From: Flavobacterium sp. 270
Lineage (GTDB): Bacteria; Bacteroidota; Bacteroidia; Flavobacteriales; Flavobacteriaceae
Direction: 5' to 3'
DNA: 64,000 bases
NCBI RefSeq assembly: GCF_004368785.1
Contig: NZ_SODM01000001.1
Span: forward strand, 620,001 to 684,000
Part shown: piece by piece, positions 3,867 through 22,858 of the stretch
How the letters are laid out: every line of letters starts with the position of its first letter
Position numbering within the stretch: position 1 is the stretch's first letter
Made by a program: the position numbers and the translations under genes
The notes under the pieces: model-generated
Database searches by the model: none
Told to the model about the DNA's origin: nothing
What the model saw: only the letters and a program-made list of their open reading frames with translations

Positions 3867-6800
3867 ATGCGTAAATTCTTTCTTTTTTTATATACCGCTC
3901 TTTTTTCGACTTTTTTTTCGAATGCACAAGAATATTATTTCAAACATTTTCAGGTCGAAGACGGACTTTCAAACAATACCGTAATTACATCATTGCAGGA
4001 CGAAGACGGTTTTATGTGGTTTGGTACAAAAGACGGCTTAAACCGATTCGATGGTTATCGATTTAAAACTTACAGAAGCCAATCTGACCCGATTCACAGT
4101 CTGGGAAGCAACTACATACAAACGATGCACGAATATAAAGGTGTAATTTGGGTAGGAACAGACAAAGGTTTGTATCAATACGATAAAAAAACAGATCGAT
4201 TTACGGTTTTAAACGAAGCCATAAACGACAGAATCAATGATATTAACCACGATAATAAAGGCAATATCTGGTTTGTATCAGGAAATATACTGTATAAATA
4301 TTCGACCGTAAAAAAGGAAACTAAAACCTTTAATCCCAATAAATATTTTGCCACAACATCAATAACCAGAGATTACAAAGGCGAAATCTGGGCTTCATCT
4401 TTAAATAAAATTTATCATTATTCTGAAGAAAATCTGTCTTTTGAAAGTATAACATTAAATCCGCCAGCCAGTAAAGCTAATTTTAGAATTACTATAATTT
4501 ATGCTTTAGACAAAGAAAATATTTTGATAGGCACACAAGATCAGGGCGTTTTGGTTTACAACCGAAAAAACAAAACCACAACCGAATTAAAGTTTGATAC
4601 CAAAGAGCCTGTTTTTGTTCGTCAGTTTAAAAAAAGAGGAAATAATGAATTGTGGATTGCCTGCGAATCTGGGGTTTATGTTTATAATCTACAAACTAAA
4701 ACAGCCGTAAATCTCAAAAAAAATTACAACGATCCGTATGCGATTTCAGACAACGCAGCCTACTCTATTACCATTGATAAGGAAAACGGAATCTGGATTG
4801 GAACTTATTTTGGCGGAATCAATTACCACCAAAAACAATACACCCAATTTAAGAAATACTTTCCGCAGAAAAATCAGAATTCTATCAGCGGAAGCGCTGT
4901 AAGAGAAATACATAAAGACGATCAAGGCGATTTATGGATTGGTACAGAAGATGCCGGCGTAAACCGTTTTAACCCTAAAACCCAAAAATTTACTTCTTAT
5001 CCGGTTTCCTATTATAACATTCATGCTTTGCTGCCGCGAAAAGACAAAATCTGGGTGGGAACTTTTGAGCATGGTTTGGATGTTTTAGATCGAAATTCGG
5101 GTCGCGTTCTCAAGCATTACAGCGCCAACGATCCGGCGACAGGTTTGCACAGTAATTTTATTTTTTCTTTTTATGAAATGAAAAACAAAAGCCTGGTTGT
5201 AATTACAACTTTTGGCTTGTACCATTATAATGAAGAAAAAGACAATTTTGAAATCCTGAAAATGTTTCCGGAAACGGCACATTTCACTTATTTTAAAGAA
5301 GATTACAGCGGTAATTACTGGGCAGGAAGTTACAGAGACGGTTTGTTTTTTTACAATCCGAAAACTAGGAAACGCGAAGTTTTTACGTATGACTATAAAA
5401 ACCCAAACGGAATCAGCAATAATTCTATCAATTCTTTATTTGAAGACAGTCGAAAAAATCTTTGGATTGCCACAGAAAACGGACTGAATTTATTCAACCC
5501 AAAAAACAGGACTTTTACTAAATTCACCACCAAAAATGGATTGCCGAGCAATGTTGTGTATTCCATTTTAGAAGATGATTCCCAGAATTTATGGATGACA
5601 ACTTCTAAGGGTTTGGTAAAATTTAGTCCGGATCATAAAACCATTAAAATTTTTACAACTGCAAACGGACTTTTGAGCGATCAGTTTAATTATAGTTCGG
5701 CGTTTAAAGATGCCAACGGCGATATGTATTTTGGAAATCTAAACGGAATGATTAGTTTTAATCCGAAGCATTTTACGAAGAATAAATACACGCCTTCTAT
5801 TTTTATTACCAATCTTCAGATTAACAATAAAGATATTGTTGCAGACGAAAATAATTCTCCAATAAAACAGTCCATTTCGCATATTTCAGAATTAGAATTA
5901 AACAATAATCAATCTTCTTTTAATCTTGAGTTTGCTTCTTTAAACTTTACCGCGCCCGAACTTACAGAATATTGGTACAAGCTCGAAGACGTAAACAAAG
6001 ACTGGGTTTATCTGGAACGCAACAACAAAGTTTTCTTTACAGAACTGGCGCCTGGCGATTATGTTTTTAAAGTAAAAGCCTTGAACAGTTTTGGCGTTTG
6101 GAGTAAAGAAGTAAAACTGAAAATCAAAATATTACCGCCATTTTATGCGAGTTCTTACGCGTACTTTTTGTATTTTCTATTAATCTGCGGCGGTTTTTAT
6201 TATGTAATTCGTTATTCTCAAAATCTAACTCAGATTAAAAATAACCGCAAAATAAAACACCTGAACGACGAAAAAGAAAAAGAAATCTATCAGGCTAAAA
6301 TTGATTTTTTTACGAATGTAGCACACGAAATCAGAACACCATTGACGTTGATAAAAGGGCCTTTGGAAAAACTTTTGGTTATGGAACATCCAGCGCCGGA
6401 AGTACCTCAGAATCTTTCTATAATGAAGAAAAATACGTCGCGATTATTAAAATTGGTGAATGAATTATTAGATTTTAGAAAATCTGAAATCGGCGGTTTG
6501 AAATTGACTTTCGTCGAAGCCAATATTTCGTCTCAGGTTCGAAATTTACATCTAAGATTCAGCCAGCTTATTGAAGAAAGAGGTATTGAATTTGAACTGG
6601 AACTGGGCGAAAAAGACATTTTTGCTTTTGTGGATAAAGAAGCTTTCAAGAAAATCCTGAGTAATTTGATCGGAAACGCCATAAAATACTCCAAGGACAA
6701 AGTTTCGATTTCTTTGTTTAGAGATGAAAAAAAGCTGACGATTATCGTGAAAAATGATGGAAATCTGATTCCGTTTCATTTGAAAGATAAAATTTTTGAG

Positions 6801-7793
6801 CCGTTTTTTAGAGTGGATATGAATACAACTTCCGGAACCGGAATCGGACTTTCGCTGGCGCATTCGCTTACACAACTGCATAACGGAAGTTTGCAATTGG
6901 TTTCTGATGCTGCTTTTAATGTTTTTGAATTGACTGTTCCGCTGCATCAGGAAGAAGAATTTATGTTTTATAATGAATCTGAAAAAGAACAAACCGAAAA
7001 AGAAATTGAAAAAGCTTCAATTGAAATTAAAAATGAAAAAGCACAGATTTTAGTCGTAGAAGATAATGAAGATCTTTTGAGTTTTATTATTTCGGAACTG
7101 GCTTCTAACTATATTGTTTTAAAAGCCGAAAATGGCGAAAGTGCTTTAAAAATCATTCATAACGAAAATATTCAGCTTGTAATAAGTGATATTCAAATGC
7201 CCGTTATGGATGGGATTACACTTTGCAAAACCATTAAAACCAACTTAGAAACCAGTCATATTCCGGTGATTTTATTAACGGCAAAAAGCTCATTGAAATC
7301 CCAAATTGACGGCCTGGAAGTTGGCGCAGATGCGTATGTAGCAAAACCTTTCTCTATGGATTATCTTAAAGTTCAGGCCAATAATCTAATCGAAAACAGA
7401 AAACAGATTATGAATTATTATGCGAGTTCGCCTTTGTCTCACATTAAAAGCATAGCACACAACAAAACCGACGAAAAGTTCCTGAAAAAGCTGGACGATG
7501 AAATTCTTAAAAACATTACAGATCAGGATTTAAGCGTAGAATCACTGGCCGAAATCATGAACATGAGCCGATCGACTTTATATAGAAAAATTAAAGACAT
7601 TACGAATTTAAGTCCGAACGAATTGATAAATATTGTCCGCCTAAAACGCGCCGCAGAATTATTATTAAACGAAAATTATAAAATGTACGAAATCGCAGAA
7701 ATGGTGGGTTATAAATCTCAGACGAGTTTTGGACGTAATTTCCAGAAGCATTTTAGTATGTCGCCTTCTGATTATGTTAGTGCTAATCGTTAA
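3867..7793 (+). CDS. Hybrid two-component system (propeller sensor, kinase, receiver, AraC HTH)
   Basis: 1308 residues. Signal peptide at 1-21, then two seven-bladed regulator propellers built of repeats such as GFMWFGTKDGLNRFDGY, giving a large periplasmic sensor to about residue 690. A Y_Y_Y domain follows to about 770, a single membrane segment near 775-795, and a kinase core with the H-box AHEIRTPLTLI (His820), N-box NLIGNAIKYS and G-box GTGIGLSLA. The receiver starts near 1060 and has phospho-acceptor Asp1108 in VISDIQMPVMDG. The AraC-type HTH lies at about 1205-1305. All key residues are present. This family binds a sugar in the periplasm and switches on the neighbouring susC-susD genes, and the divergent susC fits that role. 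Confidence 0.96.
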   Translation: MRKFFLFLYTALFSTFFSNAQEYYFKHFQVEDGLSNNTVITSLQDEDGFMWFGTKDGLNRFDGYRFKTYRSQSDPIHSLGSNYIQTMHEYKGVIWVGTDKGLYQYDKKTDRFTVLNEAINDRINDINHDNKGNIWFVSGNILYKYSTVKKETKTFNPNKYFATTSITRDYKGEIWASSLNKIYHYSEENLSFESITLNPPASKANFRITIIYALDKENILIGTQDQGVLVYNRKNKTTTELKFDTKEPVFVRQFKKRGNNELWIACESGVYVYNLQTKTAVNLKKNYNDPYAISDNAAYSITIDKENGIWIGTYFGGINYHQKQYTQFKKYFPQKNQNSISGSAVREIHKDDQGDLWIGTEDAGVNRFNPKTQKFTSYPVSYYNIHALLPRKDKIWVGTFEHGLDVLDRNSGRVLKHYSANDPATGLHSNFIFSFYEMKNKSLVVITTFGLYHYNEEKDNFEILKMFPETAHFTYFKEDYSGNYWAGSYRDGLFFYNPKTRKREVFTYDYKNPNGISNNSINSLFEDSRKNLWIATENGLNLFNPKNRTFTKFTTKNGLPSNVVYSILEDDSQNLWMTTSKGLVKFSPDHKTIKIFTTANGLLSDQFNYSSAFKDANGDMYFGNLNGMISFNPKHFTKNKYTPSIFITNLQINNKDIVADENNSPIKQSISHISELELNNNQSSFNLEFASLNFTAPELTEYWYKLEDVNKDWVYLERNNKVFFTELAPGDYVFKVKALNSFGVWSKEVKLKIKILPPFYASSYAYFLYFLLICGGFYYVIRYSQNLTQIKNNRKIKHLNDEKEKEIYQAKIDFFTNVAHEIRTPLTLIKGPLEKLLVMEHPAPEVPQNLSIMKKNTSRLLKLVNELLDFRKSEIGGLKLTFVEANISSQVRNLHLRFSQLIEERGIEFELELGEKDIFAFVDKEAFKKILSNLIGNAIKYSKDKVSISLFRDEKKLTIIVKNDGNLIPFHLKDKIFEPFFRVDMNTTSGTGIGLSLAHSLTQLHNGSLQLVSDAAFNVFELTVPLHQEEEFMFYNESEKEQTEKEIEKASIEIKNEKAQILVVEDNEDLLSFIISELASNYIVLKAENGESALKIIHNENIQLVISDIQMPVMDGITLCKTIKTNLETSHIPVILLTAKSSLKSQIDGLEVGADAYVAKPFSMDYLKVQANNLIENRKQIMNYYASSPLSHIKSIAHNKTDEKFLKKLDDEILKNITDQDLSVESLAEIMNMSRSTLYRKIKDITNLSPNELINIVRLKRAAELLLNENYKMYEIAEMVGYKSQTSFGRNFQKHFSMSPSDYVSANR

Positions 7794-10808: not shown

Positions 10809-10853
10809 TTGTTGATTAATAAATTTAGATTTCTATATTTGCAACACTGTTGC
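10809..10853 (+). promoter_or_regulatory. Bacteroidota-type promoter with overlapping palindromic operator
   Basis: TTGTTG at 10809-10814 and TATATTTG at 10834-10841 are separated by 19 bases and match the -33 and TAnnTTTG -7 elements of Bacteroidota housekeeping promoters. The last base of the -7 box begins a perfect palindrome, GCAACA-C-TGTTGC (10841-10853), which would cover the transcription start. A site in this position suits a repressor such as a Fur-superfamily metal regulator; that identity is a guess. It drives the small His/Cys-rich protein gene starting at 10889. Confidence 0.65.
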
Positions 10854-10888
10854 GTTTTTACCACTAAAAAAGCAATGCAAAAACAGGA

Positions 10889-11239
10889 ATGAAGAAGAAA
10901 ATTATAATTGTCAATTTCTTGATGTCTCTAATAGTATTGTCTGCAATGCTGTTTCAGACCCTTCACTCCTACGAACACGTTTACAGGCAATTAACCGAAA
11001 AACACTGTGAACACCATACAAGTGCCAATCAAAAGCAAATAACACATAGTCACTCTGTTGATACGCAGTGTCATATTTGTCATTTTTCTTTCAGTACTTT
11101 CATTCCTAACTCATTTCAGACTTTATTTTTTCAAAAAATACAATTTGAAACCGTTGCTGTATTTGAATATACCAAATCGGTTTCTACATTCTTTAAAGGC
11201 AGTCTTTTTGCCCTTAGAGCACCTCCCGCTTTAGTTTAA
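10889..11239 (+). CDS. Small exported His/Cys-rich protein, possible metal handling
   Basis: 116 residues; no family firmly recognised. The N-terminus is a signal peptide or membrane anchor (IIIVNFLMSLIVLSAMLF). A His-rich segment follows (HCEHHTS, THSHSV), then CHICHF near residue 66, and the C-terminus ends in ALRAPPALV. This layout (export signal, histidines, CxxC, terminal proline pair) resembles small copper- or zinc-associated proteins such as DUF2946 of Proteobacteria and the DUF6660-like protein at 38714-39034 here. Its promoter carries a palindrome over the start site. It lies 309 bases upstream of an ABC/TonB-receptor operon on the same strand. Metal binding is inferred from residues only. 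Confidence 0.7.
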   Translation: MKKKIIIVNFLMSLIVLSAMLFQTLHSYEHVYRQLTEKHCEHHTSANQKQITHSHSVDTQCHICHFSFSTFIPNSFQTLFFQKIQFETVAVFEYTKSVSTFFKGSLFALRAPPALV

Positions 11240-11423
11240 TTTTCATTTTATTCTTTTAATTGAAAGATAACATTTGCCAGTTCATAAAAATTGGCAGACA
11301 AATTTATTTATTCTTGACGCTGATTTATTTCTGCTAAAGATCAAATACTGATGTTATTTTCAATATTAAAATAAAATTTTACAGCCGTTATCTTATCGGC
11401 AAATTCCTTATTCAGATATATCT

Positions 11424-11520
11424 AAGATTCTAAGTTAATAAGATTCTAAGTTAATAAGATTCTAAGCTGCTAAGCTTTTAAGCTTTTAAAAACTTAGAAC
11501 CTTAGTCGCTTAGAATCTTA
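11424..11520. repeat. Short direct and inverted repeats of AAGATTCTAAG type
   Basis: AGATTCTAAG occurs three times in direct orientation (11425, 11441 and 11458) with TTAATA between copies, followed by gctaag-type words and one inverted copy (CTTAGAATCTTA at 11509-11520). It could fold as a long imperfect hairpin just upstream of the ABC ATPase start. Similar words recur at 52681-52767. The rest of the 309-base gap is AT-rich with no gene. Confidence 0.6.
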
Positions 11521-11548
11521 GCAACTTTTTTAAACTAAATACACAACC

Positions 11549-12244
11549 ATGCTAATTGCTGAAAATCTTACCAAAAAATACGGTGACAACATTGCCTTAA
11601 ACGCTTTAAACTTGACGATCAAGGAAGGCGAAATCTTTGCTCTTTTAGGGCAGAACGGCGCAGGAAAAACGACTACAATCAACCTTTTTTTAGGTTTTAT
11701 AGCACCAACCGAAGGAACTTTAGAAATAAACAATATTCCCGTTACTCAAAACGCGGTAACTACTAAGCAATATGTCGCGTACATTCCGGAAACAGTAATG
11801 CTGTACCCAAATCTTACGGGTTTAGAGAATCTTAAATTCTTTTCTTCTCTGGCGGGATTTAAATATTCACTTGGAGAATTGACTTATTTTCTATCAAAAG
11901 CAGGTTTACAAATCAAAGCACACGATCAGGATTTGGGCGGTTATTCTAAAGGAATGCGTCAGAAAGTGGGCATTGCGATTGCGATTGCCAAAAAGGCAAA
12001 AGTGCTTTTACTCGACGAACCTACAAGCGGTTTAGACCCAAAAGCTTCTAATGAATTTTCGCAGATCTTAAAAGAGCTTTCAGCAGACGGAACCGCGATT
12101 TTAATGGCGACACACGACATTTTTAGAGCCAGAGAAGTTGCTACACATATCGGAATCATGAAACAAGGAAACTTGGTTACTGTTATAGAAGCTTCTAAAA
12201 TCTCGGCAAACGAACTCGAAGATTTGTATTTACAAACGGTTTAA
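11549..12244 (+). CDS. ABC transporter ATP-binding protein
   Basis: 231 residues. Walker A GQNGAGKTT at 34-42, signature GYSKGMRQ at 131-138 and Walker B VLLLDEPTSGLD with Asp156-Glu157 are intact, followed by an H-loop (ATHD). The sequence type is that of the ATPases that power ABC-2 exporters (NosF/CcmA class), not importer ATPases. It is the first gene of a tight operon with a TonB-dependent receptor and two ABC-2 permeases, which are its probable membrane partners. Confidence 0.93.
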   Translation: MLIAENLTKKYGDNIALNALNLTIKEGEIFALLGQNGAGKTTTINLFLGFIAPTEGTLEINNIPVTQNAVTTKQYVAYIPETVMLYPNLTGLENLKFFSSLAGFKYSLGELTYFLSKAGLQIKAHDQDLGGYSKGMRQKVGIAIAIAKKAKVLLLDEPTSGLDPKASNEFSQILKELSADGTAILMATHDIFRAREVATHIGIMKQGNLVTVIEASKISANELEDLYLQTV

Positions 12245-12274
12245 AAGGAAACAGAGATTTCCATCTACATAAAA

Positions 12275-14572
12275 ATGAAACACTTATATAGCTTACTTTT
12301 TTTAGTGAGCACTTTACCTATGCTCCATGCGCAAACCGTTAACCAAAAAGTTCGGGACAGCATTGCAAAAGATTCTGTCGAAATGGAATCTAAACGAAAT
12401 GAATTACAAACTGTTGAAATCGTTGGTCGTTCGACCAAAAAATACAATAGCGATTATTCTTTTTCGGCCACAAAAACAGCGTCATTAAACAAAGATATTC
12501 CGCAATCTATTGCTACAATTACCAAAGAATTGATTGCAGATAAAGGCGCTATTTATCTTGCTGATGCCGTAAAAATGTCGAGCGGTGTGATTCCGGCGAG
12601 TTATTACAACCAATACACCATTCGAGGCATTAGCCAAAATGAAGAAGGCCAGATTATCAACGGAATGCGTACGCGTCAATATTATTTTTTGCAGCCACTT
12701 ACCAGCAATATCGAACGTGTAGAAGTGATAAAAGGACCTTCGAGTGCTACATTTTCGTCTGTAGATCCGGGCGGAAGTATTAATATGGTAACGAAAAAAC
12801 CTTTGGCAATTGACCGAAAAGAAGTCAGTTTTACGGTTGGAAGTTTTAGTACTTTACGCGGAACGCTTGATTTTACGGGACCATTAAACGAATCAAAAAC
12901 ACTTTTGTACCGCGTAAATGGCGCGTATCAGGAAGCAAAATCTTTTCGTGATTTAGTTCATAATAAGTCGTTTTTGATCTCTCCATCATTCAGTTATATT
13001 CCGAATGAAAAAACGGCTATTAATACCGAGTTGATTTTAAGCGACATGACAGGAGTTTTAGATCGAGGACAGCCTATTTTTGGCGCGACAGCCGGCGTTA
13101 CCAATTTAAATAAAACGCCAATAAGCCTGAATTTAGGCGCATCTGGAGATTATTTTAAATCTAAAGAAATGATTTTGATGACAAATTTTGCTCATAAATT
13201 CAATTCAAAAATTGGTTTTAATGCGTCGTACATGAAACAAACCTGGACAGAAAACCTTCAGGAACACCGTACTACAAATGCTTTTGCTGTTGATATCAAC
13301 AATCAGCTGGTAACAAGTCTGGCGATGATGCAGTTTGTGCAGCGCCAGCAATATTGGGATATTGATAACTTAAGCACTTATTTTAATTTTGATTTTAAAA
13401 CCGGAAAACTTCATCATAAATTATTAACTGGTTACGATTTAAGCAGCTGGAATAAAAACAAAGGCGGTGGACAAAATACGGCGCGCGGTTATGTATTAAA
13501 AGACGGAACTGTTGCTAGTTCTTTTGTTCCGGCAAATGCATCAAACTACCAAACCGTTACCGTTAATGGTGTTGTACTGCCAAAACCAAATGTAAATTTC
13601 TTTGATTTAAATAATCCGTCGTACGCGCTCAGAAGTCCGGAAGATTATATATTAAATGTTAGAACGGCGCTTCCTTCGGCATTAACAACTACAAATGCGA
13701 TTTATGTTCAGGATCAGATTCAGTGGGAAAAGTTTCGTTTTTTATTGGGTTTACGAAACGAGTGGTTTGAAGATATTACGAATTATGAAACCAATAATGA
13801 ACTGACGGTTAAAAAGTCGGCGCTGTTACCGCGAATTGGAATTACATACGCTGTAAATCAAGCTATAAACATTTACACAACATATTTAGAAGGTTATCAG
13901 CCACAATCGAATACGACAACTTTGATGCCCCAAACAGGAAGTCTGCCGGCTGGAAGTCTTTTTAAACCGCTTGAAAGTGATTTGAAAGAATTTGGTATGA
14001 AAGCCACTTTCCTAAACAATACAATGAGTTTTAATGCTGCTGTTTACGAAATCAATCAGCGTAATATTTTGATGAATGCCAATGATCCTGTAAACCCAGA
14101 TTTGTTGATAACAAGAGGAAGTGAAAGAAGCCGTGGTTTTGAGTGTGATTTGGCGGGATATATTACTCCAGATTGGCAGATAAACGCCTCTTACAGTTAT
14201 ATTGATGCAGAAATTACCAACGATGCAAATCCGGATTTAATTGGTGCGCGAAAGCAAAACACGCCTAAGAATAGTGCCAATTTATGGACTCGTTACAACT
14301 TTACTTCAGATTCGGCTTTACGAGATTTAGGAATTGGATTTGGGATGCAGTACCAAAGCAGTAAAGTGCCTTGGTTTACCCGTGATTTTACACTTCCTGA
14401 TTTTACCATTTTTGATGCCGCACTTTATTACAAACCAAGCCAAAGTATGCAAATTGCCGTAAATGCAGGCAATCTGCTGAATAAAACCTATTGGCTTGGT
14501 GCTCAGAATTATTTGAGATTATTTCCCGGAAGTCCGCGAAATGTGAGCCTTACCGTAACTTATAAATTTTAA
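12275..14572 (+). CDS. TonB-dependent receptor, siderophore-receptor type
   Basis: 765 residues. Signal peptide ends at about residue 20 (STLPMLHAQ), followed by a short linker, a TonB-box-like ELQTVEIVGR near 44-53, the plug (DKGAIYLADAVKMSSGV, then RVEVIKGPSSATFSS) and a beta-barrel ending in VSLTVTYKF. The pattern matches the siderophore-receptor branch and not SusC. There is no STN domain. Its stop codon directly abuts the next start codon (14572/14573), and the ABC ATPase ends 30 bases upstream, so it is translated within an ABC transporter operon. The ligand is unknown; a chelated metal or small cofactor is plausible. Confidence 0.93.
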   Translation: MKHLYSLLFLVSTLPMLHAQTVNQKVRDSIAKDSVEMESKRNELQTVEIVGRSTKKYNSDYSFSATKTASLNKDIPQSIATITKELIADKGAIYLADAVKMSSGVIPASYYNQYTIRGISQNEEGQIINGMRTRQYYFLQPLTSNIERVEVIKGPSSATFSSVDPGGSINMVTKKPLAIDRKEVSFTVGSFSTLRGTLDFTGPLNESKTLLYRVNGAYQEAKSFRDLVHNKSFLISPSFSYIPNEKTAINTELILSDMTGVLDRGQPIFGATAGVTNLNKTPISLNLGASGDYFKSKEMILMTNFAHKFNSKIGFNASYMKQTWTENLQEHRTTNAFAVDINNQLVTSLAMMQFVQRQQYWDIDNLSTYFNFDFKTGKLHHKLLTGYDLSSWNKNKGGGQNTARGYVLKDGTVASSFVPANASNYQTVTVNGVVLPKPNVNFFDLNNPSYALRSPEDYILNVRTALPSALTTTNAIYVQDQIQWEKFRFLLGLRNEWFEDITNYETNNELTVKKSALLPRIGITYAVNQAINIYTTYLEGYQPQSNTTTLMPQTGSLPAGSLFKPLESDLKEFGMKATFLNNTMSFNAAVYEINQRNILMNANDPVNPDLLITRGSERSRGFECDLAGYITPDWQINASYSYIDAEITNDANPDLIGARKQNTPKNSANLWTRYNFTSDSALRDLGIGFGMQYQSSKVPWFTRDFTLPDFTIFDAALYYKPSQSMQIAVNAGNLLNKTYWLGAQNYLRLFPGSPRNVSLTVTYKF

Positions 14573-16030
14573 ATGGGTATGAAAGTATTACACGCCGAAA
14601 TTTTAATCGCCAAACATTTTAGAAACTCCGTTTTTAAAAATAGTGCTATTTTTATTATTACACTTTTTATTGGCATTTTATTGCTTTATGCTGCGTTTTC
14701 GGGTTGGGAGAATTATTCGAACCAAAACGAAACGAGCGAAAAATACCAGCACCAATCACGGGAAGACTGGTTGAAAAATCCAGATAAAAATCCGCACAGA
14801 ATGGCGCATTACGGAAATTTTGCTTTTAGAAAGAGTACTTCTCTAAGCGTTTTTGAATTCGGAATGGAACCTTTCTTCGGAAATGCCATTTTTCTGGAAG
14901 CGCACAAACGAAATACAGCCAATTTTTCTGAAGCTGGATTTTCTAACAGTATGCTGCGTTTTGGTGAAATCAACATTGCAATGGTTTTGCAGATTTTACT
15001 TCCGTTGTTGATCTTTTTCTTAGGATTTAATTCGATTGCATACGAACATGAAAACGGAACTCTGAAAATCCTTTTAACGCAGGGAATCAATTGGAAACAA
15101 CTTTTGACAGGAAAAATATTAGGTGTTGCAAGCGTTATTATGCTGCTTTTTGTACCCACAATTATTGTGTTGGTTTTTATTTGGTTAGTTCTTCAAAATT
15201 TTACTATTTCGGCAGATGAAACGATCAAAATGCTTTTGTTTATTGGGTTTCATTTTATTTATCTGCTCTTTTTCTGCATCATTGCAGTTTTAATTTCAGC
15301 GGTAAGCAAAACATCCAAAAAAGCGTTGATTTCCCTTATCGGGATTTGGCTTGTATTTACGATCATTCTGCCGAGAACTACGCAGGCGGTTGGCGCTTAC
15401 ATCTATGAAGCACCTTCAAAAATAAAATTCAACAGCGATATCGAAAAAGATATTCTCCTGCAGGGCGACAGTCACGACCCAAACGATCTGCATTATAAAG
15501 CGATTAAAGATTCTTTGCTTCTGGTTTATAAAGTCGATTCGGTACAGAAACTTCCGTTTAATTATTCGGGTTTTATAATGGCTGAGGGCGAAAAAATAAG
15601 TTCCAGAATTTACAACGAACATCTTGCCGAACTTCTTAAGATTTACGAAAATCAAAATAGTTTTTCTAAAACATTTTCGTTTTTAAATCCGTACATCGCT
15701 ATCAAAAATCTTTCGATGGGATTGTCTAATACTGATTATGATTCTTATATCGATTTTCAAAAACAAGCCGAAGCATATCGTTACAATATGGCGCAGAAAA
15801 TGAATGCTTTACAGGTAAAATTCATTAGCAATAAAAAACCCGGACCAAATGATAAACCGCTTACAATTGGCAAAGAGCATTGGGCCGATGTAGCAGCATT
15901 TCATTATGAACCAAAAGGAATCCGGGAAGTTTTAAAAAGTGAAATTATCTCTATTCTTTCTATTATTCTCTGGATTACAATTCTGTTTATTTTCATCAGA
16001 ATTGCTGCCAAAAAACTTAAAGCCATCTAA
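14573..16030 (+). CDS. ABC-2 type permease (DUF3526-like), first of two
   Basis: 485 residues; a second start at the third codon is possible. There is a transmembrane segment at about 24-42 (AIFIITLFIGILLLYAAF), a large outside loop of about 100 residues, then a cluster of segments from about 140 to 275 containing EHENGTLKILLTQGINW, the typical coupling motif of ABC-2 permeases. A second large loop and a last segment near 460-478 follow. This is the layout of DUF3526 permeases, which act in pairs with one ATPase. It starts at the base after the receptor stop codon. Confidence 0.88.
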   Translation: MGMKVLHAEILIAKHFRNSVFKNSAIFIITLFIGILLLYAAFSGWENYSNQNETSEKYQHQSREDWLKNPDKNPHRMAHYGNFAFRKSTSLSVFEFGMEPFFGNAIFLEAHKRNTANFSEAGFSNSMLRFGEINIAMVLQILLPLLIFFLGFNSIAYEHENGTLKILLTQGINWKQLLTGKILGVASVIMLLFVPTIIVLVFIWLVLQNFTISADETIKMLLFIGFHFIYLLFFCIIAVLISAVSKTSKKALISLIGIWLVFTIILPRTTQAVGAYIYEAPSKIKFNSDIEKDILLQGDSHDPNDLHYKAIKDSLLLVYKVDSVQKLPFNYSGFIMAEGEKISSRIYNEHLAELLKIYENQNSFSKTFSFLNPYIAIKNLSMGLSNTDYDSYIDFQKQAEAYRYNMAQKMNALQVKFISNKKPGPNDKPLTIGKEHWADVAAFHYEPKGIREVLKSEIISILSIILWITILFIFIRIAAKKLKAI

Positions 16031-16031
16031 T

Positions 16032-17375
16032 ATGTTAGTACTAGTATTTAAAAATTTCTTACGATCAAAAGGTACCAAAATTGGCTTACTTTTTTTATTA
16101 TTAATCTGTTTTATAAGCCTTTTAATCGGACATCAATTTCAACAAAAACAGCAAAATAATATTACCGAAGCTGCAGTCTATCAAAAAGAACATATTGCCA
16201 GAAACGCTGCTTTCCATAAAGACGAAATTGGACTTTTGCTGTATAATATCAAATTTTCGTTAGTCAATAAAACACTGCCGATAAACAGTTTAGCGATTGG
16301 ACAAAGAGATGTAAATCCATCGATTCAGAGTGTTACGATTCGCGGTTTGGAAGCGCAGAAATACGATTCAGAACTTAATAATCCGAATAATTTACTTTCT
16401 GGAAATATCGATTTTAGTTTTGTATTGATTTATCTATTTCCGCTTCTTATTGTGGCTTTTTCATACAATATAATTTCCGAAGAAAAAGAAAGCGGTACCT
16501 GGAAAATCGTGGCAACGCAGAGCAAAAACACGTTTCTATATATTCTACAATTATTTTATGTTAGAATTTTAAGCGTTTTAGCGTTGTTTACTATAGTTTC
16601 CCTAATTGCAGTTTTGTTTTTGAATATTCCGTTAGACACTTCTCTCCTAACCTTTTTTGGATTGGGCGTTTTGTATATTTTGTTTTGGTTTTCGGTTTGT
16701 TTCTTCATCGTTTCACTTCAAAAACATTCTAATTTTAATGCGGTTATTTTATTGACAATCTGGTTGTTTTTGATCATAATTCTTCCGGCTACAATTAACA
16801 CTTATATCGTAAACAAATACAAAGTTCCAGAAGCTTTAGAACTAACATTAACGCAGCGAAATGCGTATCACGAAAAATGGGATTTGGATAAACAGAAGAC
16901 TTTAAATAAATTCTATGCTCATTATCCGCAGTTTAAACATTATGCTTTGCCGGAGAAAGAATTCAGCTGGCTTTGGTATTATGCGATGCAGCAAATGGGC
17001 GATGATGAATCGGCAATACAATCGCGCGAATTAGAGTCTAAATTGAAACAGCGAAATCAGGCGAGTCAGACAATTGCTATGTTTATTCCAACACTTCACA
17101 CGCAGATTCAGCTGAATGAAACCGCAAAATCAGATCTGGGAAATCAGCTTTTGTTTTTGAAGGCAACAGCTAAATTTCACGAAAAAATGAGGTTGTATTT
17201 TTATCCAAAAATATTTGATGAAGTGCCGGTTGATAAGGAAAATTGGAAGAAATTTAAGGTTGAAACTTTTACGGATTCTACAAAAATAGATTTCTTTAAA
17301 GTGATTCTTCCTTTATTGATTTTTAATATTTTATTGTTTGCTTTTGGATGGAGGAATTTTAGATTTTTTTCTTAA
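16032..17375 (+). CDS. ABC-2 type permease (DUF3526-like), second of two
   Basis: 447 residues from the ATG at 16032, one base after the previous stop; the frame is open upstream, but that part overlaps the previous gene. The layout repeats that of its neighbour: N-terminal segment (IGLLFLLLICFISLLIG), outside loop, a cluster of segments with EEKESGTWKIVATQ as the coupling motif, second loop, and a final segment near the C-terminus. With the neighbour it probably forms a heterodimeric membrane channel powered by the ATPase at 11549-12244. The direction of transport is not shown by sequence, but this permease class is mostly exporting. Confidence 0.88.
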   Translation: MLVLVFKNFLRSKGTKIGLLFLLLICFISLLIGHQFQQKQQNNITEAAVYQKEHIARNAAFHKDEIGLLLYNIKFSLVNKTLPINSLAIGQRDVNPSIQSVTIRGLEAQKYDSELNNPNNLLSGNIDFSFVLIYLFPLLIVAFSYNIISEEKESGTWKIVATQSKNTFLYILQLFYVRILSVLALFTIVSLIAVLFLNIPLDTSLLTFFGLGVLYILFWFSVCFFIVSLQKHSNFNAVILLTIWLFLIIILPATINTYIVNKYKVPEALELTLTQRNAYHEKWDLDKQKTLNKFYAHYPQFKHYALPEKEFSWLWYYAMQQMGDDESAIQSRELESKLKQRNQASQTIAMFIPTLHTQIQLNETAKSDLGNQLLFLKATAKFHEKMRLYFYPKIFDEVPVDKENWKKFKVETFTDSTKIDFFKVILPLLIFNILLFAFGWRNFRFFS

Positions 17376-17712: not shown

Positions 17713-18312
17713 ATGAATATAAATAGTAGTTTAGAATCCGATCATTTTGAATCTTTCAAGGAAGGAAACGAAACTGCTTTCACTTATTTTTACGATAAAT
17801 ATTTTCGCAGGATACAATCTTTCAGTGTTCAGTTTATTTACGATGCTGAAGAAGCTGAAAATCTGGCTCAGGAAGCTTTTCTTCATTTATGGCAAAATAG
17901 AGAAACTGTCGAGTCTATCAACGGAATTCAGTCTTTTTTGTACACTTATGCCAAATCAAAATGTTTGAATTTTATTCGTCATAATAAAGTGAAGGATAAA
18001 TTCAAAAGTGATCTTTTAAATCAAAAAGAACGCGAACTGAATATTGAAGTTTTAAATTCGATATCATTTGATACTTTAGAATTAACCGAATTAGAACGCA
18101 TAATTCAGGAATCTATAAACGAATTACCTCCCAAAACCCGCGAAGTTTTTATAAAAAAACGCTTCGAAAATAAAAAAAATGCAGAAATCGCAGAAGAAAT
18201 GCAAGTTACTTTAAAAGCTGTTGAAGCCCACATGACCAAGGCTTTGAAGATTTTAAAAACCAAATTATCCGATTATTTATTCCTTCTTTTTATTCTTATT
18301 TATAATAATTAA
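17713..18312 (+). CDS. ECF-type RNA polymerase sigma factor
   Basis: 199 residues. The sigma-2 region contains FDKYFRRIQSF-like helix 2.1 and DAEEAENLAQEAFLHLWQNR (region 2.2) near 55-75. The sigma-4 HTH contains LPPKTREVFIKKRFE and NAEIAEEMQVTLKAVE near 140-180. It belongs to the Bacteroidetes FecI-like group that is paired with a FecR protein and a SusC-type transporter carrying an STN domain, and both partners follow directly. It should direct transcription of the downstream transport operon when released by its anti-sigma factor. Confidence 0.94.
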   Translation: MNINSSLESDHFESFKEGNETAFTYFYDKYFRRIQSFSVQFIYDAEEAENLAQEAFLHLWQNRETVESINGIQSFLYTYAKSKCLNFIRHNKVKDKFKSDLLNQKERELNIEVLNSISFDTLELTELERIIQESINELPPKTREVFIKKRFENKKNAEIAEEMQVTLKAVEAHMTKALKILKTKLSDYLFLLFILIYNN

Positions 18313-18380
18313 AAACAAAAGGTAGGGTATTTTAATTCTGAAGTGTACTTACTAAAGCGAGGAGTTTTAAAAACGCAAAT

Positions 18381-19487
18381 ATGACATCAGAATTAATTTA
18401 TAAATACTTATCTAACGAAGCTTCAGAACAAGAAGTTCAGGCACTTTTTGAATGGATTGATGCTTCTGAAGATCATAAAAAGCAATTTATAACTTTAAAG
18501 AAAGCTTGGATTTTAAGCGATTTCTCTGATGCTGCTTTGATTGATGCTGTTCCGGTAATCCAAATCAAATCAAAAAATAAATGGAGGCAATATTTAAGTT
18601 ATGCAGCCGTATTTTTAGTTTTAATAGGATTAGGAAGCTCTATTTTATTATTTACGGATAAAAATAAATCTTCAAAAAAAGAAATTGTTCTGGAATTTAG
18701 CGACGGCTATTCAGAAAATTATTCTCAAAAAAATCAAACTGTATTGTACAATGACAAGGGATTAGTGGCCAAAAAATTCCCGGATCACATTGTATATTTC
18801 GGAAAAGTTCTTGATAAAGAAGTTTTATATCACACACTTACAGTGCCATACGGAAAAAGATTCAAACTTCAGCTTTCAGATGGAACTGTTGTGAGTTTAA
18901 ATTCCGGAACTACTTTTCGTTATCCGGAGCAGTTTGGCATTAACGGAAAAAGAAATGTTTATTTAACCGGTGAAGCATTTTTTGAAGTTGCCAAAGACAA
19001 ACAGCATCCGTTTATTGTGCATGCCAATCAAGCTGATATACAAGTTCTTGGAACTAAATTTAACGTGAGCGCTTATCCTGAAAACCCAACTGTAAATAGT
19101 ACTTTGGTCGAAGGAAGTATTCAAATGTCTGAGGCTGCAAATGCTTCAAATGTCGTTTTATTAGCTCCAAATCAAATGGCGACATGGATTAATAATTCGA
19201 AAAAAATTGTAACAAAATCTGTCGAACCTGCCTTCTACTCTGCCTGGACAAAAGGTGAACTTGCGTTTAAAGATACCCCATTTTCAACTATCGCAAAAAT
19301 TATTCAGCGTACCTACGACGTTGAAATTGTAAACGAAAATTCTGATTTGGCCAGACAGAATTTTACGGGTACAATTACGATTAGCGAATCTAGTGTCGAA
19401 AACATTTTAGAACTTCTAAAACGTGACACGCCTTTTAATTATTCTATTAAAAATAAGACTATTACCATTACCAATATTCCAAACTAA
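18381..19487 (+). CDS. FecR-family anti-sigma factor
   Basis: 368 residues. A short cytoplasmic domain (ISNEASEQEVQ-type start) spans about 1-65, a single membrane segment lies at about 72-91 (SYAAVFLVLIGLGSSILLF), a FecR domain with VPYGKRFKLQLSDGTVVSL and LTGEAFFEVAKD at about 155-250, and a C-terminal DUF4974-like domain (FKDTPFSTIAKIIQR) at about 290-365. It sits in the inner membrane, holds the sigma factor and receives a signal from the STN domain of the next gene product. It lies 68 bases after the sigma gene and 7 bases before the transporter gene. Confidence 0.95.
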   Translation: MTSELIYKYLSNEASEQEVQALFEWIDASEDHKKQFITLKKAWILSDFSDAALIDAVPVIQIKSKNKWRQYLSYAAVFLVLIGLGSSILLFTDKNKSSKKEIVLEFSDGYSENYSQKNQTVLYNDKGLVAKKFPDHIVYFGKVLDKEVLYHTLTVPYGKRFKLQLSDGTVVSLNSGTTFRYPEQFGINGKRNVYLTGEAFFEVAKDKQHPFIVHANQADIQVLGTKFNVSAYPENPTVNSTLVEGSIQMSEAANASNVVLLAPNQMATWINNSKKIVTKSVEPAFYSAWTKGELAFKDTPFSTIAKIIQRTYDVEIVNENSDLARQNFTGTITISESSVENILELLKRDTPFNYSIKNKTITITNIPN

Positions 19488-19494
19488 ATAAAAC

Positions 19495-22400
19495 ATGACT
19501 TTAACGATACCCAATACTTTAAGAAAAATTCTGTTTTTCTTAGCCCTTCTTATATCCGGTTTTAAAGGTTTTTCTCAAAATAAATCGATCACTTTACATT
19601 TAAAAAATAAACCTATCAGCTTCATTATTAAATCAATTGAAGAACAAAGTGATTTTAGGATTATTTATAATGCCAGAAAAATTGATGCCGAACAACTGGC
19701 CGATATTGATGTAAATAATGCCTCTCTTGAAACAACTTTAACGCAGTTACTGGCTGGTAAAAATATTTCGTTTTACATTCAGAAAAAGCAGGTTTTATTA
19801 ACGAGTGCTCCGCCTCAAACTTTAAATCCAGACAATCAGGAAACAGCAAGATTTATAAGCGGAACGGTTTATAATGCCAAAGACAAACTGCCTCTTCCCG
19901 GCGCAACGATTCGCATAAAAGGAACGGGAATGGGCGCGATTACTGATTTTAACGGAAAATTTGTTTATGAATTAAAAGGAAATAACATCTCAAATCTGGT
20001 GCTTGAAGTTGGCTTTTTAGGAATGGAAACGCAGTCTCAAAAAGCAGAAAACAAAAAAGAGTTTATTTTTTATCTTGAAGAAACTACAGACGAATTAAAT
20101 CCGGTGGTAATTACTTCATCTTACGGAACTAAAAAATTAAAAGAAGAAATTGTTGGAAGTATTTCGACTTTAAACGCAAAAGATATTCCGGTACAACAGG
20201 CTTCTGAAAGCATTGATAAAATGATCGAAGGACAAATTCCCGGGGTTTTGGTAGAAAATACTTCTGGTGTTGGTGGTCCGGTTAAAATTAATATTCGCGG
20301 TCAGGGAACTTTAAAATCTCTAAATGGGAATCTTTTAGGAACTTCAACTCAGCCTTTGATTATTGTTGACGGAATTATTATGACGGAAGAAACAGGTATT
20401 GATAACGACTTTTTTAATGCTGCAGGAGTGGGTTCAGAAAATTTATCAAATCCTCTTGCTTTATTATCTCCTGATAATATAGAAAACCTAACGGTACTTA
20501 AAGATGCAGCTGCGGTTGGTCTTTATGGTGCTGACGGTGCAAATGGCGTAATTTTGATTACGACCAAAAGAGGAAAACAAGGTAAAGCTAAATTTAGTTT
20601 TTCAAATCAGCTTGGTGTTTCTTCTGCCATTAATCAAATTAAATATTTAAATGGCGCACAATATACTGAACTTAGAAATGACTATTTAAAAAATACATCA
20701 ACGGGTTATGTTCCAGTTCCTTACAACGGTGTCGATACTAATTGGTTTGATTTATTAAATAATTCTGGAATTTACAATAAGTATAATTTTAGTGTTTCTG
20801 GCGGAACTTCAAAATTCTTTTATAATACTAATTTGACGTATTTGAATATTGATGAGCCCCAATTAGGAAATACAACAAAACAGCTTGATGCCGGAATTAA
20901 TTTAGGTTACAGAACTTCAAAATGGGATCTAAATTTGTCTTTTAATCCGAGTTATATTAAAAAAGATGCACCAAACATTTTTTATGATTTTGCTTATGTG
21001 CCTACTCTTTCGCCTTATAATGCAGACGGTTCTTATTCTAATACTGGTTTAATAGGTGCAACGGGCGGAAATCCTTTAGCAGCAATTGACCAAAATAAAA
21101 ATATCACAGATACGTACGGAATTTTAAGTAGTTTGAATGTAGGTTATGAATTGAATAAGAACATCAAATTTGCCACTTTATTCGGAATCGATTATAAAGA
21201 TAAGTCACAGGATCGCTATTTTTCTGGTGAAAATGAAAGCGGACAAGCGAACGGTTCTTTTTTATTAAACGGTGATACGTACCCAAATTGGGGAAGACGT
21301 CTTTTTAATAAACGTAATTCGACGAAATGGAACTGGCAGGGACAAGTTTTATTCAATAAAGAAATCAATCACGATAATACTATTGATGGTGTTGCTGGGT
21401 TTGAACTTTCTGAAGAAAAAACCAATTTTGGGTATCGATCTGCGACAGGTTTTGTGAACCCGAATGTGATACACAATATCGAAGATGCGATTCAGGATGA
21501 TAATCTTTTGACACCGCTTGTTGACGAAAGCAAAGCAAAACAAGTTTCTCAATCGGATATTAATTACAATTCTAGAGTTTCTTTGTTTACTCAAATCAAT
21601 TATAATTATAAAAAGAAATATTATTTCTTAGGCAATTTTAGACGCGACGAAAGTTCTGTTTTTGGAAATGATACGAATGTTGCGCTTAACAGCGGCGCAG
21701 GTCTTGCCTGGATTATGAGCAACGAAGATTTCTTAAAATCAAATTCGTGGGTTGATTTCTTAAAACTAAAAGTAAGTTACGGTTCTACAGGAAATTCAAG
21801 AATTGGTTCTTACCGATCAAAAGGTCTTTATTCGATTTCTAAAAATGGTTATAATGGTGAAGAATATGCTACACCAACTGATGCCCCAAATGGAAATTTA
21901 AGCTGGGAAAAGAATAAAAAGTTTAATGCCGGTGTTGATTTTAATGTATTCAATACTATCGAATTGACTTTAGAATATTACTACGACGATCTAAGCGATT
22001 TAATTACGAGCAGAGATCTTCCTATAGAATCTGGTTATACTTCGCTGCAATTAAACGCCGCAAGTATGTACAATAAAGGTTTTGAATTGGGTACCCGAAT
22101 TAAATGGTTGCAGAAAGGAAAGTTTAAATGGACTACTTCTTTTAATATTTCAACGGTACAAAACAAGGTAACGGATTTAGTTGGTTTAGGAAGTGATTAT
22201 TCTATAGCGTCACTTGCGCTTGCTCAAAAAATTGGATACAGTACAACAAAAATCTGGGGAATGAAATGGGCTGGCGTTGACCCTGCAACGGGTCGGGATT
22301 TGGTTAATAAAGGCGGACAAATTTATGATGCTGCAACTTATAACCAAACTTTTACTGCTGCCGATTGGGAACCTATTGGAGATACACAGCCAAAAGCTTA

Positions 22401-22854
22401 TGGAGGTTTTAGCAATAGTTTTTCTTTTAATAATCGCATTACTTTGGGTATTACAGGCGCTTTTCAATTGGGCGGAGATAAATTGGTTTCAGACGATATT
22501 ATTGCCAAATATCGTACGACTTCAAACCGAAATATGTCTGTAAATGCTTTTGACTATTGGAGAAATCAGGGAGATGTTGTTGCGCAGCCAACGCCAAGCA
22601 ATAACACTTTACTGCCCAACTTAAGCAAATATGTTTATGATGCTACGTATGTCAAGATCAGCAATATTAATTTGAGTTATAATGTTCCTCTAAAAAATAC
22701 TTTTCTGGATGCTTTAACGGTGTTTGCAGATGTTTCAAACGCATTGTATTGGTATAAAGAAAAAAGTCCGGCGGGAATGAACGGTATTCGAGAATTTAAT
22801 TACACTTATCCACAAGCCAGAACTATTTCATGTGGAATTAATACAAAATTTTAA
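19495..22854 (+). CDS. SusC/RagA-family transporter with N-terminal STN signalling domain
   Basis: 1119 residues, longer than the first SusC because an STN (secretin/TonB short N-terminal) domain lies at about 33-103 (LHLKNKPISFIIKSIEEQS) after the signal peptide. A carboxypeptidase-regulatory-like domain (ISGTVYNAKDKLPLPGATI) spans about 122-205, then a TonB-box region (NPVVITSSYGTKK), a plug and a barrel ending in CGINTKF. The STN domain explains the sigma/FecR pair upstream: ligand binding is relayed through FecR to the sigma factor, as in FecA. The ligand is not evident; the downstream peroxidase hints at a redox or iron-linked function rather than simple glycan use. Confidence 0.95.
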   Translation: MTLTIPNTLRKILFFLALLISGFKGFSQNKSITLHLKNKPISFIIKSIEEQSDFRIIYNARKIDAEQLADIDVNNASLETTLTQLLAGKNISFYIQKKQVLLTSAPPQTLNPDNQETARFISGTVYNAKDKLPLPGATIRIKGTGMGAITDFNGKFVYELKGNNISNLVLEVGFLGMETQSQKAENKKEFIFYLEETTDELNPVVITSSYGTKKLKEEIVGSISTLNAKDIPVQQASESIDKMIEGQIPGVLVENTSGVGGPVKINIRGQGTLKSLNGNLLGTSTQPLIIVDGIIMTEETGIDNDFFNAAGVGSENLSNPLALLSPDNIENLTVLKDAAAVGLYGADGANGVILITTKRGKQGKAKFSFSNQLGVSSAINQIKYLNGAQYTELRNDYLKNTSTGYVPVPYNGVDTNWFDLLNNSGIYNKYNFSVSGGTSKFFYNTNLTYLNIDEPQLGNTTKQLDAGINLGYRTSKWDLNLSFNPSYIKKDAPNIFYDFAYVPTLSPYNADGSYSNTGLIGATGGNPLAAIDQNKNITDTYGILSSLNVGYELNKNIKFATLFGIDYKDKSQDRYFSGENESGQANGSFLLNGDTYPNWGRRLFNKRNSTKWNWQGQVLFNKEINHDNTIDGVAGFELSEEKTNFGYRSATGFVNPNVIHNIEDAIQDDNLLTPLVDESKAKQVSQSDINYNSRVSLFTQINYNYKKKYYFLGNFRRDESSVFGNDTNVALNSGAGLAWIMSNEDFLKSNSWVDFLKLKVSYGSTGNSRIGSYRSKGLYSISKNGYNGEEYATPTDAPNGNLSWEKNKKFNAGVDFNVFNTIELTLEYYYDDLSDLITSRDLPIESGYTSLQLNAASMYNKGFELGTRIKWLQKGKFKWTTSFNISTVQNKVTDLVGLGSDYSIASLALAQKIGYSTTKIWGMKWAGVDPATGRDLVNKGGQIYDAATYNQTFTAADWEPIGDTQPKAYGGFSNSFSFNNRITLGITGAFQLGGDKLVSDDIIAKYRTTSNRNMSVNAFDYWRNQGDVVAQPTPSNNTLLPNLSKYVYDATYVKISNINLSYNVPLKNTFLDALTVFADVSNALYWYKEKSPAGMNGIREFNYTYPQARTISCGINTKF

Positions 22855-22858
22855 AAAG

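Follow-up and report, generated by a model that had tools for sequence, protein, structure and literature searches.

Layout and conservation of the gene cluster

The window, the whole stretch of DNA analysed here, comprises 64,000 nucleotides of Flavobacterium sp. 270 (contig NZ_SODM01000001.1, positions 620,001 to 684,000 of the forward strand). It carries a cluster of five genes encoding a small protein (SML), an ATP-binding cassette (ABC) ATPase, a TonB-dependent receptor and two permeases, A and B (Table 1). A preliminary description had named an ATPase, a siderophore-type receptor and two DUF3526 permeases with gaps of 30, 0 and 1 bases. The assignments were borne out by family profiles: the ATPase matched ABC_tran (1.4e-30), the receptor passed the TIGR01783 siderophore model (291.7 bits, cut-off 223.5), and PF12040 (DUF3526) was found in permeases A and B (5.3e-29 and 4.8e-26), which were its sole matches in the whole 5.7-Mb genome. 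The three gaps were reproduced from the open reading frame (ORF) coordinates, and 309 bases separate SML from the ATPase. For permease B, the start was set at the ATG at 16032, which gives the 1-base gap; a longer GTG-start frame from 15939 was also called. No mention of DUF3526 was found in the literature search. Two stacked controls, a zinc-repressor operator and a leader built like the nascent-chain sensor CruR, appear to govern this conserved Bacteroidota cluster of a receptor and NosFY-like genes.

Table 1 Positions of genes, sites and motifs of the cluster in the window
Feature	Position	Strand	Description
Promoter -7 element TATATTTG of SML	10834..10841	+	TAnnTTTG type; coordinates checked
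Palindromic operator TGCAACACTGTTGCG	10840..10854	.	Candidate Zur box; overlaps the -7 element
SML	10889..11239	+	116-aa small protein (ORF call); candidate CruR-type leader ORF
CxxC codons of SML	11069..11080	+	Residues 61-64
RAPP codons of SML	11216..11227	+	Arrest-type motif; residues 110-113, C-terminal
C>G intergenic region	11240..11548	+	Candidate Rho-type attenuation site; no recognisable promoter
ATPase	11549..12244	+	ABC-2 ATPase; solved relatives are ABCA proteins, then NosF
Receptor	12275..14572	+	TonB-dependent, siderophore-type; nearest solved structures FhuA, FoxA
Permease A	14573..16030	+	NosY-like ABC-2 core with two large extra regions; DUF3526
Codons of H75, H79, E109 and H111 of permease A	14795..14905	+	Conserved set; H301 at 15473-15475
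Permease B	16032..17375	+	Second DUF3526 ABC-2 permease; no comparable histidine set

The gene order was looked up across Bacteroidota and is not unique to the source genome, and the small protein co-occurs with it, so that both of these refuting conditions of the preliminary description failed. Among 199 genomes of the genus, all 24 with an ortholog (at least 80%) carry SML, ATPase, receptor, permease A and permease B in this order, with SML first throughout, and a chance assembly of the cluster was rejected on this ground. In 149 genomes of the family, the order ATPase, receptor, permease A and permease B was kept in 11 of 11 other loci whose permease A shares at least 40% identity; permease B of one of them (L037) is interrupted by a stop. 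A scan of named genomes, of which the best 80 of 351 relatives were kept, gave 66 loci from Flavobacterium or Flavobacteriaceae, with F. johnsoniae CI04 among them, and a further 14 from Arcicella, Dyadobacter, Spirosoma, Fibrella, Larkinella, Aquimarina, Cellulophaga, Paraflavitalea, Niastella, Sinomicrobium and a Cytophagales metagenome-assembled genome. The full five-gene order was recognized by script in 62 of the 80. The 18 exceptions comprise two loci with split or uncalled frames (L245, L246), two at a contig edge (L250, L251) and the 14 non-Flavobacterium loci, of which eight have ATPase-receptor-permease-permease, three receptor-permease-permease-ATPase, two no receptor and one an uncalled permease B. 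ORFs were called by script in all loci and not every start was placed correctly, as in L278, whose called start has two operator copies at and within it; many loci are closely related, so the counts are not independent.

Beyond these relatives the arrangement varies. A second, more distant group of 15 loci (L044-L058) has no receptor between ATPase and permease. Nine of 14 plasmid records were inspected: plasmids of Eleftheria, Comamonas and Hymenobacter carry a small protein, receptor, ATPase and two DUF3526 genes in this order, a Blastomonas plasmid has ATPase-DUF3526-DUF3526-receptor, in Novosphingobium receptor and ABC genes are divergently oriented, and Methylocystis has the ABC genes without a receptor. 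The small protein of the Eleftheria plasmid belongs to PF11162 (DUF2946), and a plasmid search for its relatives returned only itself. In the DUF3526 loci L036, L052, L054, L055 and L056, filed with the second group, a DUF5916/CBM9-type gene adjoins the ABC genes (checked with Pfam for L054 only) and a CxxC...PP small protein lies upstream.

Downstream of the cluster, genes for an extracytoplasmic function (ECF) sigma factor, a FecR-type anti-sigma factor and SusC/SusD-like proteins occupy 17713-24337 of the window, and a TAnnTTTG element was seen by eye before the sigma gene. Only some relatives keep the sigma gene next to the cluster. These genes were rejected as part of the system, since the sigma gene adjoins the cluster in just 6 of 22 genus loci (L156-L177, counted from script labels, with some loci ending near that edge).

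The palindromic operator and its candidate Zur-like repressor

The SML promoter carries an element (TATATTTG) matching TAnnTTTG, which we take to be the Bacteroidota promoter -7 consensus, and the extended form TAnnTTTGCAA lies 5' of SML in 65 of 66 loci. A palindrome, TGCAACnnnGTTGCA, overlaps this promoter; in an alignment of 22 genus loci with the window, the operator block was, judged by eye, the longest alike stretch 5' of SML. The exact sequence TGCAACnnnGTTGC occurs three times in the 5.73 Mb genome: in the SML promoter, between a Zur-like repressor gene and a divergent MerC gene, where a weaker second copy lies beside it, and inside an ankyrin-type ORF. With up to one mismatch, the pattern gave 61 strand-wise matches in the source genome versus 28 for the control, at 47 distinct places (for two of them, the sequence read was that of the short loci L082 and L087 alone). 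One is the SML promoter, two are in the repressor promoter, one is intergenic with no called start downstream (L145:8502) and 43 are inside script-called ORFs. Two of these ORFs, in L096 (64 aa) and L143 (112 aa), are questionable, and the matches there may lie between genes.

The concentration of the palindrome in promoters was evident across 78 named loci, in which the same tolerance gave 74 matches in 28,860 promoter positions versus 11 in 1,637,526 positions elsewhere; reversed and arm-swapped control motifs gave 0 and 0 in promoters and 1 and 3 elsewhere. Nine of the 11 matches elsewhere sit 5' of the same clusters in L286, L287, L288, L291 and L292. The palindrome was present in 62 of 64 Flavobacterium loci. 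Among the 14 non-Flavobacterium loci it was found in the promoter window of six, and in 11 when leaders and upstream cluster genes were counted; even so counted, L282, L283 and L293 had none.

The genes that share the operator point to zinc-type control. In L041, palindromes are followed in a single run by MerC, FolE, ATPase, receptor and both permeases, spaced 2 to 14 bases apart, and a Fur-like gene faces them. Perfect palindromes in Fibrella and Spirosoma head genes labelled by eye as MerC-like and COG0523-type, followed by receptor-permease-permease-ATPase, and in Larkinella a palindrome heads a Fur-like gene and two COG0523-type genes, likewise labelled by eye. The best model for the Fibrella COG0523 gene in this run was ZigA, a zinc GTPase, at 550.7 bits (cut-off 600). 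COG0523-type genes lie beside the palindrome in L194, L204, L210, L288, L291 and L292; those of L194, where the gene belongs to a run facing the repressor, and L288 were the two scanned, and both scored best as ZigA, below its cut-off. An iron regulon was rejected, since the operator is common to Zur-like, FolE, MerC and ZigA-like genes.

The repressor encoded in the source genome, whose promoter carries the palindrome, is a Fur-family protein (PF01475, 25.1 bits, cut-off 23.1). Its best solved match is E. coli Zur (E 1.6e-4) with the sensory-site Cys aligned, and the presumed ligands C70, H77, H81, H83, C86, C89, C121 and C124, with two structural Cys pairs among them, are invariant in eight of eight regulators. 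Three relatives of the repressor scored 17.8, 22.4 and 39.3 bits with the Zur model NF008646 (cut-off 167), which was the top model for one of them, and the protein is therefore called Zur-like; these scores belong to the relatives and not to the source genome's own repressor. The palindrome, with up to one mismatch, is in the promoters of all 30 best-matching repressors in the genus, 10 of which come from cluster-less genomes. Furthermore, the repressor is present in 24 of 24 cluster-bearing genus genomes versus 47 of 175 without the cluster (p 9e-13, uncorrected for kinship). In L091 (7292-9157), the gene directly downstream of the Zur-like gene encodes an NRAMP protein fused to a universal-stress domain, and an ORF of like size with a like start follows the repressor in the other 29 loci.

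A precedent exists in Caulobacter crescentus, in which Zur represses the receptor gene znuK (CC1517) and znuGHI, encoding an ABC-2 ATPase and two permeases (CC1518-1520), from an operator that overlaps the -10 region (PMC4176598; this and the other systems compared here are cited from the portions of the papers available to us). According to the same source, znuK and znuL mutants formed no colonies at high ethylenediaminetetraacetic acid (EDTA) unless zinc was added. In our own searches, PF12040 was found in Caulobacter vibrioides alone among 14 control genomes, so that ZnuH and ZnuI are probably DUF3526 proteins. The preliminary description had proposed an envelope module dedicated to a metal or metal complex. 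This proposal gained support, and the operator common to Zur-like repressors and ZigA-like genes, together with the Caulobacter precedent, makes zinc, we infer, the best-supported metal. Regulation of the cluster by zinc, taken by itself, is judged highly probable.

The small protein SML and the intergenic region

The CHICHF and terminal RAPP motifs noticed in the preliminary description were located at residues 61-66 and 110-113 of SML. The protein is 116 residues long; its CxxC (61-64) is followed by 45 residues, RAPP and three final residues. The spacing is 45 in 65 of 66 SML proteins and 46 in one, 63 of 66 end three residues after the PP, and the C-terminal stretch is among the best conserved parts. 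Further conserved histidines occur in the motifs HSYEH, C.H, THSH and CHF. The structure model had a mean predicted local distance difference test score (pLDDT) of 56, with confidence limited to the hydrophobic N-terminal helix, and SML is probably exported.

This anatomy resembles that of CruR, a DUF2946 protein of Bordetella pertussis (bp2923), in which a CXXC in the nascent chain senses copper and relieves an arrest at RAPP, 45 residues after the CXXC and three from the end (PMC9426467). In the account given there, relief of the arrest triggers Rho termination before a TonB receptor gene, and a C>G bubble extends from the leader into the gap. CutF of Rhodobacter capsulatus is likewise an exported nascent chain with a metal motif and a proline-rich C terminus that controls its downstream gene; CutF-like proteins were already reported in Bacteroidota and before TonB-type genes, and the authors suggest that not all of them are copper-specific (PMC9973294). 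The resemblance of SML to copper-linked DUF2946 proteins, noted in the preliminary description, was a useful lead, which points to a CruR-type regulatory leader rather than an exported metal-binding component. On the features compared, sensing by the nascent chain is a more probable task for SML than carrying metal, and its leader role is considered likely.

Leader-like ORFs extend beyond the close relatives. Among 24 distant small ORFs, chosen by their position before DUF3526 ABC genes, 23 combine a CxxC with a C-terminal [RK]xPP at a distance of 43-53 residues; the one in L301 has no CxxC. Of 26 family stretches, two of which (L036 and L058) overlap, 17 contain a CxxC...[RK]xPP small ORF somewhere along their length, as do 5 of 14 non-Flavobacterium loci. 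Operator and leader are distributed as a mosaic: Cytophagales loci tend to have the operator without the leader, Flavobacterium has both, and a leader with no operator found occurs in Aquimarina, Cellulophaga, Sinomicrobium and several other family members. Neither was found in L045, L047, L049 and L051. Two separate controls on one transporter would fit a shared purpose better than chance neighbours. On contig C2 of the source genome, a second SML-like leader (L307, 4556-4909) has the form CxxC-44-RGPP. It is followed after 169 bases by a receptor gene (5079-7286) whose top NCBIfam model is ZnuD (181 bits), with no palindrome near the pair.

The gap between SML and ATPase measures 68-509 bases (median 263) in 66 loci, and a TTG-N17..21-TAnnTTTG promoter motif was not found in any of the 66. 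A C>G bias exceeding 0.1 in SML and gap alike marks 50 of 65 loci (related to one another), compared with 1 of 192 control gene-gap pairs. The bias of the gap by itself is less distinctive, as 138 of 192 control gaps have C>G as well. The stem-loop version of leader control, as in CutF, lost support because the structure of the gaps is no stronger than that of controls. In the window, AAGATTCTAAGTTAAT-type repeats at 11410-11525 fold unusually strongly (z -5.9); they are not common to the few relatives' gaps compared.

Permeases, proposed mechanism and known systems

The model of permease A (pLDDT 81) had NosY as its one Foldseek match above noise (9.8e-5) and covers the whole of NosY (Z 23.7, 3.0 Å over 250 of 250 residues), which was matched by hidden Markov model as well (6.1e-6). 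ABCA7, ABCG25 and PmtCD, listed after NosY by VIA-align, were taken as reflecting the common ABC-2 fold. Two extra regions, residues ~45-130 and ~290-445, have no NosY counterpart and would presumably lie in the periplasm, where the NosY topology places them. Their His/Glu set is thus probably periplasmic. In 116 aligned proteins, mostly from Flavobacterium, H75, H79, E109 and H111 are 99-100% conserved and H301 97%; the set persists in most of the distant relatives, with H75 missing in Blastomonas and E109 in L050. Permease B has no comparable histidine set. H79 and H111 flank two short predicted strands (81-85 and 105-109), and a shared site is therefore plausible. The predicted NosY-type fold argues against a classical importer. 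Neither a NosD-type protein nor a ZnuABC-type binding protein with importer permease is among the five genes.

Several neighbours were seen beside related modules. AstE/AspA-type deacylases (two) or an M14 peptidase (one) adjoin the module in L043 (11723-12775), L301 (10712-11767) and L295 (3005-4825), hinting at an amide- or peptide-containing ligand. On an Aureibacter plasmid (L302, 3351-10702), the genes for a receptor, a DUF4374 protein, an ATPase and two DUF3526 proteins are consecutive; DUF4374 is, we presume, linked to siderophore binding. In L034 (3807-7532) and L050 (12211-14496), the DUF3526 genes are followed by an ABC pair of MacB/FtsX type, which has a His-rich stretch, and by a small protein without a Pfam match in L034; these pairs recall the Zur-controlled PA4063-4066 of Pseudomonas aeruginosa.

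The proposed reading is a metal-acquisition operon for zinc starvation with two stacked gates. A zinc-bound Zur-like repressor would occupy the operator over the SML promoter and be released as cytoplasmic zinc falls. SML would then be translated first; in its metal-free state the ribosome would pause at RAPP and shield the C-rich gap, so that transcription could run into the ATPase, receptor and permease genes, and metal on the CxxC/His motif would relieve the pause and stop the operon. The FhuA-class receptor may carry a zinc complex into the periplasm. The NosFY-like ABC-2 complex would act outward, stripping or handing over the metal, or returning the ligand, and would not import as ZnuABC does. 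This whole chain is favoured by a narrow balance. Its most specific form, in which SML is a zinc-tuned relative of CruR under Zur and the permeases form a NosFY-descended DUF3526 metal-transfer device working directly with a TonB receptor, is offered tentatively.

Several observations weigh against this reading. No receptor accompanies the ABC genes of Dyadobacter (L284, L285) or Methylocystis (L297). A search of 300 bases before one chosen gene per locus found no palindrome for 6 of the 11 related family loci (L034-L038, L043) or for 12 of 15 second-group loci, and the GTTA-N5-TAAC site was not found in six proteobacterial plasmid loci. In Flavobacterium the operator stands 5' of SML alone, and transcription would have to read through for it to control the ABC genes. 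For the repressor, Fur without the sensory Cys nearly tied with Zur as solved match (2.6e-4 vs 1.6e-4), and two of the three scored relatives did better with the Fur model than with the Zur model, all far below cut-off. An NRAMP gene lies 3' of the repressor in the source genome and other loci read, and a search of the source genome gave no clear COG0523 gene, only three weak and unconvincing matches. The gap RNA folds with no excess over controls (mean z -1.76 for 66 gaps vs -1.73 for 69). SML of the window has no PF11162 match, with weak ones in 6 of 20 relatives (best E 0.0061), and is for this reason said to work like CruR rather than filed as a DUF2946 member. The receptor behind the second leader scores nearly as well with a heme-receptor model (176.5 bits) as with ZnuD (181), both far below cut-off. 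CruR itself senses copper, and zinc changed the level of BfrG protein little and that of its mRNA moderately (PMC9426467).

Other explanations differ in what the ABC-2 part and SML would do. Regarding the transporter, ABC-2 folds are mostly exporters or mechanical transmitters and the receptor is of the siderophore class, which suits a cycle in which a cytoplasmic zinc-binding small molecule is exported and its metal complex recovered by the receptor. P. aeruginosa provides a parallel in its Zur-controlled import and MacB export of pyochelin-cobalt (PMC11481552). However, there is no biosynthetic gene among the five (neighbours elsewhere were viewed by eye and in part), the IucA/IucC siderophore genes are ~1 Mb distant, and the probably periplasmic His set of permease A suggests that metal is handled outside the cytoplasm. 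Opine dehydrogenase (PF10100) had no match in the genome, in a search made uninformative by the lack of matches in controls. Such a cycle is considered rather unlikely. A true zinc importer completing the receptor's uptake, as the name znuGHI implies, is less probable still and would be a doubtful assignment: the Zur-repressed znuGHI is annotated as a putative high-affinity uptake system (PMC4176598) and the operon holds no other inner-membrane transporter, but the NosY-type fold, the lack of a binding protein among the five genes and the description in the available portions of that work of receptor mutants and no znuGHI mutant all count against it.

As for the metal and the leader, NosFY serves copper and the scores of two of the three repressor relatives lean to Fur, so the operon might serve copper, with SML sensing it and the palindrome bound by a Fur-family protein not specific for zinc. 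CruR and CutF both respond to copper (PMC9426467, PMC9973294). Nevertheless, the operator is shared by repressors with Zur-type sensory Cys and by MerC, FolE and ZigA-like genes, the receptor after the second SML scores 94 bits with a TonB-copper model against 181 with ZnuD, and the Caulobacter precedent concerns zinc (PMC4176598), which leaves copper unlikely. Finally, the conserved His and Cys residues and the N-terminal helix of SML would suit a metal-binding protein or chaperone that is exported and co-produced with the transporter. The fixed CxxC-RAPP spacing, the conserved C-terminal stretch, a confident structure limited to the N-terminal helix and the failure to find a CxxC...[RK]xPP small ORF in 9 of 14 non-Flavobacterium loci keeping the ABC genes all speak against a carrier, which we hold to be the least probable of these alternatives.

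Part of the proposed two-gate operon is already known: a receptor and ABC-2 genes under Zur in Caulobacter, and CruR/CutF-type leaders before TonB-type genes. Zinc-uptake control by Zur in Bacteroidota was hardly treated in the literature searched; the nearest work, on ZntR in Riemerella, names zinc-linked TonB receptors and, in the portion available, no Zur regulon. The ABC-2 system znuGHI is named in the literature searched, with no mechanism found in the portions seen. If true, the reading would add a zinc-acquisition mode, a DUF3526 pair with a TonB receptor, not found in that literature, and one operon that reads cytoplasmic zinc through transcription and a second metal pool through translation. 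SML would then be the first zinc-responsive nascent-chain leader known to us. According to the CruR authors, riboswitches for Cu or Zn are not known (PMC9426467); a leader that senses zinc would close this acknowledged gap. The Bacteroidota operator is directly testable, and the receptor-ABC module is present in the tractable F. johnsoniae (L220).

Compared with known systems, the receptor is like FhuA and FoxA over its whole sequence, whereas the operator and co-regulated genes here are of zinc type and not of iron type. P. aeruginosa PA2911-2914 and PA4063-4066 are Zur-controlled receptor and ABC systems for a metallophore that combine a classical importer with a separate MacB exporter (PMC11481552); here an ABC-2 DUF3526 pair lies in the receptor operon. 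The core of permease A matches the full NosY and NosF is among the solved relatives of the ATPase, but the two extra regions with the His/Glu set, the two different permeases and the outer-membrane receptor in the operon set the cluster apart from NosFY(D). CutF requires a stem-loop over the next start (PMC9973294), unlike the SML-ATPase gap without excess structure. SML shares with CruR, as described in the portion available, the CXXC, the 45-residue spacing, the RAPP three residues before the end, the position at the head of a receptor operon, the long gap and the C>G bubble; it differs in falling outside PF11162, in its extra conserved His, in its Zur-type operator and in heading an ABC-2/DUF3526 operon. 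The cluster is like Caulobacter znuK/znuGHI in that a TonB receptor accompanies an ABC-2 ATPase and two permeases, with a Zur-type operator over the promoter (PMC4176598). In Caulobacter, however, receptor and ABC genes have separate promoters with the operator GTTA-N5-TAAC, whereas the Flavobacterium genes would form one operon with another operator, headed by a leader ORF of a kind not described for znuK/znuGHI in the portion of that work available.

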